Of a DNA stretch of 5,747 nt, positions 1,695-3,645 are shown piece after piece. Location of the stretch: contig DHAH01000037.1 in NCBI GenBank assembly GCA_002397345.1, forward strand, positions 6,039 through 11,785. The letters run 5' to 3'. Made by a program: the position numbers and the translations under genes. Position 1 is the stretch's first letter; every line of letters starts with the position of its first letter. The notes beneath the pieces were generated by a model. The model was not told the DNA's origin. It made no database searches and saw nothing but the letters and a program-made list of their open reading frames with translations. The DNA is from Clostridiales bacterium UBA4959. Lineage in GTDB: Bacteria; Bacillota; Clostridia; Oscillospirales; CAG-272.

Positions 1695-1723
1695 TTGACA
1701 AATTATCCGGAATATGATATAAT
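1695..1723 (+). promoter_or_regulatory. Perfect sigma-A promoter of the ECF/kinase operon
   Basis: TTGACA (1695-1700), a 17-nt spacer and TATAAT (1718-1723) match the vegetative consensus at all twelve positions. Transcription should begin near 1730, leaving an untranslated leader of about 205 nt before the ATG at 1935. So strong a promoter in front of a terminator suggests that control is exerted in the leader rather than at initiation. Confidence 0.9.
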
Positions 1724-1729
1724 ACGCCC

Positions 1730-1913
1730 AATTGTTCCGCATGAAGCGGGACGTCTGCCGTGGTAAACGGTATAACCATTCAAGGGACGATGCCGCGTAA
1801 AGTATTAGCGGTTTCATCCAAACACAACAATAAAATTAGTCAACGGCCCGCACAAGCGGGCGCGCGATACCATGAAGGCGTCGGATATATTTCCGGCGTT
1901 TATTTTTTTATTT
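1730..1913 (+). promoter_or_regulatory. Structured leader of ECF/kinase operon, candidate riboswitch or attenuator
   Basis: By eye the leader splits into three parts. The upstream folded part (1734-1818) holds hairpin 1 (GTTCCGC 1734-1740 with GCGGGAC 1746-1752, loop ATGAA), hairpin 2 (TGCCGT 1756-1761 with ACGGTA 1767-1772, one G-U) and hairpin 3 (GATGCCGC 1789-1796 with GCGG 1808-1811 and CATC 1815-1818, bulged TTT). A-rich linker 1819-1843 follows. The downstream part has a perfect 6-bp GC hairpin (GCCCGC 1846-1851, GCGGGC 1856-1861) and an intrinsic terminator. Alternative pairings exist, including CGGTAT (1768-1773) with ATGCCG (1790-1795). The layout is that of a transcription-terminating riboswitch for a vitamin-type transporter operon. 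I do not recognise TPP, FMN, cobalamin, THF, preQ1, T-box or c-di-GMP signatures, so the ligand is unassigned. Confidence 0.6.
1877..1913 (+). terminator. Intrinsic terminator in the leader, just before the ECF gene RBS
   Basis: CGTCGGA (1879-1885) pairs with TCCGGCG (1892-1898, one U-G) around loop TATATT. Weak G-U pairs extend the stem by about two base pairs. It is followed at once by the U-rich run TTTATTTTTTTATTT (1899-1913). The RBS AGGAG begins at 1914. A terminator after the promoter and before the first gene is only sensible if read-through is regulated. Confidence 0.75.
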
Positions 1914-1934: not shown

Positions 1935-2489
1935 ATGAAAAACAGAACCAGAAAAAACATGCTCCGCCTTACATATTCGGCGGTCTGCCTTGCGCTGTGT
2001 CTTGTCCTGCCGTTTTTGACCGGGGGAATCCCGCAGATCGGGAAAGCGCTGTCGCCCATGCACATCCCCGTGCTGCTTTGCGGCTTCATCTGCGGTCCGC
2101 TTTGGGGCGCGGCGGTAGGCGTAATCGCACCGTTATTGCGCTCGGTACTGTTCCAGTCGCCGCCGATGTTCCCGGTGGCGATCTCGATGGCGTTCGAGCT
2201 TGCCGTTTACGGTGTCGCGACCGGTATAATTTATAAGCTGCTGCCTAAAAAATTCTCCTACATATACGTCACGCTGATCGCGTCGATGATAATCGGGCGC
2301 GTCGCGGGCGGCATCGCACAGTTCGCGCTGCTGGGATTTGACCCCGCTAAATTTTCGCTTCCGATGTTTTTCTCGGCATATTTTGTCGGCGCGCTGCCCG
2401 GTATAATCCTGCATATCGCGCTGATCCCGCCGATTGTATGGACGCTGCGCAGGTTTAAGCTGACCGTAAATGAAAACACTGATACCTGA
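1935..2489 (+). CDS. ECF transporter S component (vitamin-type substrate-binding membrane protein)
   Basis: 184 residues, the normal size of an S component of energy-coupling factor transporters. These proteins bind a vitamin or related micronutrient in the membrane and dock on a shared EcfA/EcfA'/EcfT module, which is not in this window. After a basic N-terminus (MKNRTRK) there are about six hydrophobic segments: roughly 12-28, 43-58, 59-73, 80-100, 109-133 and 144-171. Conserved-looking stretches are SPMHIPVLLCGFICGP (40-55), IAPLLRS (64-70) and AFELAVYG (86-93). The start is ATG 1935. AGGAG at 1914-1918 is its only RBS candidate, at a long 16-nt spacing. An in-frame ATG at 1872 would translate through the terminator and has no RBS. 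The gene overlaps the kinase gene by 20 nt, so both are probably translated together. Substrate is unknown. The kinase neighbour suggests a compound trapped by phosphorylation. Confidence 0.82.
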   Translation: MKNRTRKNMLRLTYSAVCLALCLVLPFLTGGIPQIGKALSPMHIPVLLCGFICGPLWGAAVGVIAPLLRSVLFQSPPMFPVAISMAFELAVYGVATGIIYKLLPKKFSYIYVTLIASMIIGRVAGGIAQFALLGFDPAKFSLPMFFSAYFVGALPGIILHIALIPPIVWTLRRFKLTVNENTDT

Positions 2490-3048
2490 AGCGCTTTTAA
2501 AACTTTATGACGCGATATCAGCGCTCCCAAAAAATCGGCGCGCCGCAGTCGCGTTCGACGGACGCTGCGCATCGGGCAAATCGACCGCGGCAGAGTTGTT
2601 CGCGCGCATATTTGATGCGGATGTCATACACTGCGACGACTTTTTCCTGCCGCCCGAGCTGCGCACATCGGAGCGGTACGCCGAGCCGGGCGGGAATATC
2701 CATTACGAGCGTTTCATGGATGAAGTGGTTGAAAAACTGCCGTCGGGCGAGGATTTTTCATACGGCGTTTTCGACTGCGCGGAGCGAAAGATCACGCGAA
2801 CCGCGAATGTCGGCGCAAATTCGCTCGTGATTATAGAAGGCGCGTATGCGACCCACCCGCGTTTTGGCAGGTATTATGACCTGTCGGTGTTTTTCGACGT
2901 TTCACCCGCCGTCCGACGCGAACGTATTGCGGCGCGCGACGGCGCGGACGCGCTGCGCATGTTCGAGGAGAAATGGATACCGTTTGAAGAGGCGTATATC
3001 ACCGCGACTGCGGCGGATACACGCGCGGATTTACGCGTGATGATATAA
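2470..3048 (+). CDS. P-loop kinase of the uridine kinase/phosphoribulokinase type
   Basis: 192 residues, a compact single-domain kinase. Walker A is GRCASGKST (31-39), with Lys37 contacting ATP phosphates. HCDDFFLP (54-61) carries the acidic pair seen in uridine, nicotinamide riboside and pantothenate kinases. EPGGNIHYERF (72-82) lies where that superfamily binds the acceptor, and VIIEGAY (120-126) is the Walker B-like strand. RRERIAARDG (149-158) is the likely Arg-rich lid. The family is usually annotated 'uridine kinase', but the acceptor is not established by sequence alone; a nucleoside or a vitamin precursor is possible. ATG 2470 lies inside the end of the ECF gene and has only a weak RBS, so translation is probably coupled. 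The pairing suggests import by the S component followed by cytosolic phosphorylation. Confidence 0.8.
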   Translation: MKTLIPEALLKLYDAISALPKNRRAAVAFDGRCASGKSTAAELFARIFDADVIHCDDFFLPPELRTSERYAEPGGNIHYERFMDEVVEKLPSGEDFSYGVFDCAERKITRTANVGANSLVIIEGAYATHPRFGRYYDLSVFFDVSPAVRRERIAARDGADALRMFEEKWIPFEEAYITATAADTRADLRVMI

Positions 3049-3153: not shown

Positions 3154-3645
3154 TTACAATTTCTCCTGTAACGCCATATCTTTTTCAAGCGTTTCGGCGG
3201 CGAGCTTCGCCTTGTATTCCACCAGCTTCGCGGCGAGCGTATCCTCGGCGAGCGCAAGCATCTGCACGGCGAGCAACGCGGCGTTTGCCGCTCCGTCGAT
3301 TGCCACCGTTGCGACGGGCACGCCGGAGGGCATCTGCACGGTCGAGAGCAGCGCGTCAAGCCCATCGAGCGTTGACGACTTCACCGGCACGCCGATAACC
3401 GGCAGGGTTGTGTTCGCGGCAATCGCGCCCGCCAGATGCGCGGCTTTACCGGCAGCGGCGATCATAACGCCGAACCCGTTGGCGGCAGCTTCCGACGCGT
3501 ATTTCGCGGCGACCTCGGGCGTGCGGTGGGCGGAGATAACGCGCGCTTCATATTCCACGCCGAACGACGCCAGCGCTTTAAAGGCAGGGCGCAGCGTGTC
3601 AAGGTCGCTGTCGCTGCCCATTATAATTGCAACTTTTTTTGGCAT
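3154..3645 (-). CDS. purE: 5-(carboxyamino)imidazole ribonucleotide mutase (class I PurE)
   Basis: 163 residues, the usual size for PurE. The enzyme converts N5-carboxyaminoimidazole ribonucleotide to carboxyaminoimidazole ribonucleotide in de novo purine synthesis, in the cytosol as an octamer. Signatures in order: MGSDSD (9-14) for phosphate binding, SAHRTP (38-43) with the catalytic His40, [10 protein letters not shown] (64-73), and [19 protein letters not shown], the substrate loop before [16 protein letters not shown]. Lys67 stands where E. coli has Gly. I believe AGKAAHL also occurs in clostridial homologues. GAGG lies 10 nt upstream of ATG 3645. No other pur gene is in the window, and the two genes upstream are unrelated. 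The start overlaps the stop of a small ORF (TAATG), so coupled translation is likely. Confidence 0.95.

Follow-up and report, generated by a model that had tools for sequence, protein, structure and literature searches.

Upstream of the genes for an ECF transporter S component and a P-loop kinase in Clostridiales bacterium UBA4959 lies a leader RNA that is very probably, on the comparisons set out below, an attenuator belonging to a regulon of nickel and the nickel-pincer nucleotide (NPN). Alignment of homologous leaders establishes at the sequence level that a conserved RNA family with two mutually exclusive, covarying folds stands before this set of genes, and the other operons behind the family point to nickel and NPN. 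The overall explanation that we propose, in which the leader is such an attenuator, DUF3842 its probable sensor and the S component and kinase a salvage route, we would put at a probability of about 0.6. The window, as the term is used here, is the whole 5,747-nt stretch of DNA that was analysed; its features are collected in Table 1.

The leader in the window

The first-pass annotation had described a twelve-of-twelve sigma-A promoter driving an orphan structured leader, and a terminator whose U-tract touches the ribosome-binding site of the first gene of an ECF S component/kinase operon. All of these elements were recovered. A pattern scan of the window found TTGACA and TATAAT separated by 17 nt (12/12 consensus), with a TG ahead of the -10 element. 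The leader that follows is about 183 nt long, with a folding energy of -63.4 kcal/mol; shuffled sequences averaged -47.3 (sd 3.6; z -4.45), and none of the 200 folded as well. The terminator stem was placed by pattern scan at 1876-1901, followed by the U-tract and, immediately 3' of it, AGGAG. We adopted the ATG at 1935 as the start of the S component; the mechanical ORF call begins at an ATG at 1872, within the leader. The S component exceeds the cut-off for PF12822, the kinase is of the uridine kinase/PRK type with family matches below their cut-offs, and the two genes overlap.

Across the whole window, terminator-like sites numbered 7 against 9.6 expected from shuffles, which is no excess, and promoter-like sites 8 against 5.7 (sd 2.2), which is scarcely more. 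Since these pattern scans stay near the shuffle level, the credibility of the leader rests on conservation instead. Its standing outside the known classes, as the annotation had supposed, agrees with our Rfam searches: no family matched anywhere in the window at gathering score, the matches within 1690-1960 at E <= 10 were at chance level (best E 2.7), and the leaders of six relatives' loci gave none at E <= 1. A known Rfam class for the leader was rejected on this basis.

Table 1. Features of the window discussed in the text
Feature	Positions	Strand	Basis or remarks
Sigma-A promoter, extended -10	1695..1723	+	-35 TTGACA, 17 nt spacer, TGATATAAT
Leader RNA	1730..1912	+	leader family of the nickel-pincer regulon; divergent member
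Hairpin H1, GUUCCGC-AUGAA-GCGGGAC	1734..1752	+	sequence; aligns with the first hairpin of model R2
Possible degenerate H2, UGCCGU-GGUAA-ACGGUA	1756..1772	+	sequence only; mostly unaligned in the R2 match
Hairpin GCCCGC-ACAA-GCGGGC	1846..1861	+	descriptor scan and fold
H3, putative antiterminator hairpin, CGAUACC-AUGAA-GGCGUCG, one mismatch	1865..1883	+	sequence and local fold
Intrinsic terminator and U-tract	1876..1912	+	5' strand GGCGUCGG includes the 3' strand of H3
ECF transporter S component, predicted importer of NPN (or pincer nucleoside)	1935..2489	+	PF12822; regulon and co-occurrence
P-loop kinase, uridine kinase/PRK type, predicted pincer-nucleoside kinase	2470..3048	+	families below cut-offs

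A leader family with two exclusive folds

Leaders upstream of S-component loci follow a common plan: a promoter, hairpin H1, a few nucleotides, H2, an AU-rich linker, and then H3 and H4, which abut one another. The linker between H1-H2 and H3-H4 varies among leaders, and the loops are mostly of the form C-NGAA-G. Written in DNA letters, the loop and closing pair read CAGAAG for H2 in 34 of 43 leaders and for H1 in 20, and CAGAAG or CTGAAG for H4 in 21, while in 39/43 the loop of H3 has GAA as its last letters, with G or A next. The family H3 (GAUACU-AUGAA-GGUGUC) and H4 are able to coexist. In the alternative fold, the GGUGUC strand of H3 pairs downstream and extends H4 into the terminator. 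The 3' strand of H3 is shared in this way with the terminator, and so the H3-H4 read-through fold and the termination fold are mutually exclusive. In one relative's leader (L112), the terminator fold is worth -18.7 kcal/mol against -11.5 for H3 plus H4, which favours the terminator by about 7 kcal/mol. A short upstream open reading frame in the H3 region was also considered and ruled out, as the loops vary (AAGAA, GUGAA, AGGAA) and the start is not conserved.

Covariation, which the first-pass annotation had suggested looking for in the leaders of homologous operons, is present in both folds. In 21 leaders, 97.2% of cells were paired in the antiterminator fold, with 18/26 pairs changed on both sides, and 96.5% in the terminator fold, with 21/26; none of 500 shuffles reached any of these measures and slid controls paired 39-63% of cells, it being understood that the structure was drawn on those same 21 sequences and that shuffles do not keep relatedness. 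The hairpin equivalent to H3 was 99.2% paired in relatives, and H3 itself changed on both sides in just 1/6 pairs. With 43 leaders, 95.6% of cells were paired and 24/26 pairs were two-sided, in an alignment that was made to the model and is hence biased towards its structure. The leaders thus have what characterizes a transcription attenuator, namely two exclusive conserved helices of which one is an intrinsic terminator.

The covariance model R2 was built from these 43 leaders, with the window and its genus mates (L002 and L003) excluded. Training was limited to matches at E <= 3e-4, a threshold that drops opposite-strand echoes and also some true leaders (L048, L017, L024 and L003). On 80 S-component loci from public genome contigs, R2 found a coding-strand leader in 33, of which 28 were training sequences. 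On 70 such loci of relatives it found one in 20, nine being training sequences, three (the window's own locus included) reaching E 0.02-0.17 only, and one (L009) having the kinase first; these locus counts contain doubles, the same contig having been fetched twice in places (e.g. L026 and L104). At many of the other loci, by reading and uncounted, the S component sits inside an operon. At L014, L120, L123, L129 and L155 the model also matches the opposite strand over the terminator hairpin, which we read as palindrome echoes.

Within the window, R2 matches 1733-1905 at 23.1 bits (E 4.7e-4 for the window, filters off), the best of the nine matches listed, and the next-best match inside the window scores 8.5 bits. 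The genus mates give E 0.017 (L002) and 1.7e-4 (L003). The E-value of the window leader rises to 0.02 when all 70 S-component loci are searched; the genome-wide searches with R2 and with an earlier model, R1, listed no match for the window's genome, and R1 did not find the window leader. The S component and kinase stand directly 3' of it, as in the family gene set, and the AUGAA loop of H1 is present. H3 overlaps the 5' strand of the terminator stem, as in the family, and the two fold at -4.1 (H3 alone) and -13.0 kcal/mol, respectively. H2 is degenerate or displaced. The hairpin at 1846..1861, just 5' of H3, carries a family-type C-NNAA-G loop and may substitute for H2 in this leader. On these comparisons the window leader is a divergent member of the family, with a modest score, in which H1 and H3/terminator are clear and H2 is unclear.

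Genes behind the leader

A search of 345 genomes of the order with R2 gave 50 sites in 49 genomes at E <= 1e-3, at least ten of them training sites. In 46 of the 50, the operon behind the site is of the S-component, kinase, lar or nickel-/metal-type uptake kind. The first recognised gene behind the site encodes the S component in 22 cases, the kinase in one (a kinase-S operon), LarE in nine, the uncharacterised membrane protein TM180 in seven, NikA/NikB-type proteins in three, a NikM-type protein (NikM-NikQ) in two and a FecCD-type protein (FecCD-FecE) in two, with none recognised in four; the reference proteins came partly from the same loci, and some of these matches are self-matches. All nine LarE operons also have LarB and LarC, and LarB or LarC lies behind TM180 in six of seven cases, the locus L239 stopping at a contig end. 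The LarB, LarC and LarE representatives score above curated cut-offs. The NikA- and NikB-type matches fall short of the NCBIfam cut-offs, and the NikM-type protein is over the cut-off of Pfam CbiM (cobalt uptake), its NCBIfam name being cobalt transporter CbiM; that the Nik-type transporters carry nickel we infer from the lar genes. Homologues of larB, larC and larE, all NPN genes, thus stand behind the leader, and larA homologues co-occur with the S component. The R1 search had already placed the leader before LarB and LarE operons and a FecCD-type transporter. At E <= 0.05, 5/19 of its places were without such a gene (G118, G123, G143, G023:96342 and an opposite-strand echo in G023), and a sixth exception, G021, has an alaS-like gene behind the leader.

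Solitary kinase genes were considered as further carriers of the leader and rejected: none of 29 had one by eye (30 loci, up to 210 nt upstream), and a leader scan that overlooks some true leaders was negative for L071-L103. The kinase-first operon with an S component in G072 does carry the leader.

Several loci have features of their own. G229 has two leaders, one (L225) before an S component followed by LarC and the other (L244) before NikM-NikQ-type genes. In L190 (1577-2458), two small membrane-type proteins of about 125-165 and 105-125 aa stand between the leader and LarB or LarC. The same pair occurs in L237, L241, L245, L248, L250 and L262, where the L262 stretch is without LarB/LarC; the pair of L190, which was the one tested, has no Pfam or NCBIfam family, and these proteins are perhaps a new nickel or cofactor transporter. 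In G021 (contig C59, L260/L301), a leader of 63.8 bits at the contig end is followed, by eye, by an alanyl-tRNA synthetase gene, and its first 60 nt are identical to those of the L128 leader, where an S component comes next.

The S component, the kinase and probable NPN salvage

Among 146 relatives, the S component was matched in 98 genomes and the kinase in 58 (E <= 1e-3). For co-occurrence, the S component was counted at E <= 1.2e-24, which keeps 70 genomes and leaves out the weaker matches among the 98, and the kinase list comprised 53 of its 58 genomes. LarA was over its cut-off in 52 of the 146, LarC in 30 and LarB in 23. The S component is found in 28/38 LarA genomes without LarB/LarC, as against 4/14 of those with them; it is present in only 1/23 LarB genomes versus 69/123 others (Fisher 1.6e-6, a test that ignores relatedness), and in 6/30 LarC genomes. 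In G029 the S component and LarA are joined in one 605-aa frame, and in G032 the S component and the kinase share one of 549 aa. Because the S component is common in LarA genomes lacking LarB/LarC and in one genome forms a single frame with LarA, we consider that S component and kinase probably serve NPN salvage; what counts against this is that 38 of the 70 S-component genomes are without LarA over the cut-off. The window's genome (G000; assembly 2.07 Mb, 74% complete) and those of its genus mates (G001 and G002) each hold LarA (43-51 bits, divergent and over the cut-off), the S component, the kinase and DUF3842, with no LarC match and no LarB over the cut-off. At that completeness, the window's genome therefore has an NPN-type enzyme without the LarB/LarC synthesis genes.

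The kinase homologue of L008 has weak relatives in the PDB, nicotinamide riboside kinase (E 0.006) among them. An additional N-terminal domain, some 170 aa long and absent from the window kinase, is present in many of that kinase's homologues (L008:2024-3088 and others); it bears the motifs YQ..FG.GH and HSE.YR..Y.PAYR and has no Pfam match.

DUF3842 as a candidate sensor

Of 87 leader loci, counted with any doubles, 46 have a DUF3842 gene immediately 5' of the leader and in the same orientation; none has it there on the opposite strand. DUF3842 occurs in 44/49 leader genomes versus 78/296 others (Fisher 1.5e-17, again ignoring relatedness), the leader and DUF3842 searches each covering 345 genomes of the order and being treated as one draw. 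Gene content and position thereby establish that DUF3842 is linked to the leader. Some of the 78 genomes with DUF3842 and no R2 leader are cases of missed leaders. Leader genomes without a DUF3842 match are G168 (leader with lar genes), G386, G021 (leader at a contig end), G111 and G123; the R2 matches in the last two, with no nickel or NPN gene behind them, may be false. G141 is counted among the 44 through L238, a match that has no recognised gene behind it.

All 45 DUF3842 genomes among the 146 relatives have LarA, LarB, LarC or the S component. The predicted structure is Rossmann-like (pLDDT 87), and a structural search with it returned common Rossmann-type folds; a sequence search of the PDB gave nothing better than E 0.059. 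DUF3842 also tracks LarB/LarC (21/30 versus 24/116 genomes), so that an enzyme or chaperone of NPN is another possible role for it. From its position and distribution we regard it as a candidate sensor of the leader, a role whose chances we would place a little short of even.

Proposed mechanism and its alternatives

We propose that the leader is a transcription attenuator and that the importer and kinase are read through under NPN scarcity, with DUF3842 as the probable mediator. The RNA unaided would terminate, the terminator being the more stable fold, and since it is more stable than H3 plus H4, something would have to hold H3 for read-through to occur. Apo-DUF3842, a predicted Rossmann-type nucleotide-binding protein, may do so by binding the C-NGAA-G hairpin loops and holding H3-H4, and binding of NPN would then make it release them, allowing the terminator to form. 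The S component would import NPN or its nucleoside, and the kinase would restore the phosphate. That this amounts to a new system, with DUF3842 as an NPN-sensing RNA-binding antiterminator on a four-hairpin leader and the first NPN import and rephosphorylation salvage route, is a proposal that we advance with reserve. A literature search, with subscription papers mostly outside its reach, found, among the papers listed, no report of how NPN is imported or of lar genes being controlled through RNA; nor did it find papers on an ECF transporter with a riboswitch candidate, an NPN riboswitch, NPN transport or salvage, or DUF3842.

Such an arrangement has partial precedents. Cobalamin riboswitches form a regulon in which one leader family stands before genes for metal uptake, cofactor synthesis and cofactor import, much as the present leader stands before metal uptake, synthesis and probable import genes; here, however, there is no Rfam match and the cofactor would be NPN. 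Antiterminators of the LicT/GlcT type are RNA-binding regulators encoded just upstream of their attenuators, as the candidate regulator DUF3842 is of its putative attenuator, although DUF3842 is predicted to be Rossmann-like and is without a known RNA-binding domain. Guanidine-II (mini-ykkC) riboswitches bind their ligand with tandem small hairpins bearing short conserved loops, but the loops and gene set here are different, there is no Rfam match and control is terminator-based.

The cobalamin and guanidine-II cases lend some weight to direct ligand binding, in which the hairpin array itself would bind NPN or a precursor and give up H3 to the terminator, DUF3842 being a co-travelling NPN enzyme or chaperone. 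So does the fact that neither protein tested is found in every leader genome (ANTAR 24/44, DUF3842 44/49), though two of the five leader genomes without DUF3842 are G111 and G123, with their possibly false matches. The leaders have little conserved unpaired sequence beyond the loops and H3, the linker is variable, and loops that recur almost unchanged are commoner in repeats bound by proteins; we think direct binding unlikely, while counting it the main rival. The same evidence bears on the first-pass annotation, which had seen in the leader the layout of a riboswitch: a conserved, terminator-controlled leader it is, yet in place of a compact aptamer core we see repeated hairpins, and their resemblance to those of protein-bound antiterminators, together with DUF3842 next door, weakens the strict riboswitch reading. 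Its expectation of a ligand related to the imported compound remains plausible, with the regulon pointing to nickel/NPN rather than to a vitamin or nucleoside. Nickel ion itself could be the signal, the leader, alone or with a protein, reporting nickel supply and the NPN genes being the main nickel user; leader-bearing uptake operons of the NikM/NikQ, NikA/NikB and FecCD types would suit this. Genomes without detected LarB/LarC nevertheless have the leader on the S component (the window, L002 and L003), which would import a finished or nearly finished cofactor, so that NPN fits better; moreover, the leaders match no Rfam family. We hold Ni2+ to be an improbable signal.

As described in one source (PMC3369931), ANTAR target RNAs (the EutV, NasR and AmiR leaders) have small conserved-loop hairpins with an alternative terminator fold, the hairpin form leading to read-through, and an ANTAR protein binding the tandem hairpins here as EutV does at eut leaders would account for the same layout. 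By the same account, ANTAR hairpins carry a hexaloop with A1 and G4, unlike the 43 leaders, which read C-AGAA-G, C-UGAA-G, AYGAA and similar and have up to four hairpins in two pairs. In addition, an ANTAR domain had no match in 20 of 44 chosen leader-positive genomes (41 of the 49 R2 leader genomes plus G000, G016 and G057), the window's 74% complete G000 among them. On the loops and the missing domain, ANTAR-type antitermination was rejected, its probability being negligible. Chance structure, or a plain attenuator without a signal, would be in keeping with promoter- and terminator-like patterns at shuffle frequency across the window, but is made very improbable by the strong covariation of two exclusive folds and the coherent gene set behind 46/50 matches. 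With regard to the substrate, NPN is made from nicotinic acid adenine dinucleotide according to two papers (PMC7583248, PMC11770544), and this, with the weak resemblance of the kinase to nicotinamide riboside kinase, could mean that what the S component brings in is a different pathway compound, such as a nicotinate-type precursor, on which the kinase acts. A precursor importer should accompany LarB/LarC, yet the S component is rarer in those genomes, and the single frame that it shares with LarA in G029 also counts against this reading; import of a precursor seems rather unlikely.

NPN is a recently found cofactor whose route of synthesis is known, and the leader described here addresses both its import and the control of its genes. 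The gene set behind it names the players (an importer, a kinase, membrane proteins and an unstudied DUF), hints at what an orphan ECF S component, an orphan kinase and DUF3842 may do, and offers a switch that can be tested. A further prediction is that many LarA-bearing Clostridia are NPN auxotrophs living on shared cofactor.

Other features of the loci

Upstream of the leader, the window encodes the sporulation sigma factor SigG (638-1441), and in both genus mates (L002 and L003) the end of a SigG-like frame also lies upstream. The PurE gene at 3154-3645 is on the minus strand and converges on the S-kinase operon. LarB belongs to the AIR carboxylase family as PurE does, but the window protein scores 199 bits as PurE against 27 as LarB. 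The L129 locus, which has a leader, also has an AdoCbl-II riboswitch match just short of threshold (2185-2261, minus strand; 34.7 bits against a cut-off of 36.5), and at L253 (803-981, minus strand) a lysine riboswitch (E 1.7e-24) is encoded on the strand opposite to the FecCD operon's leader, some 1 kb away from it.
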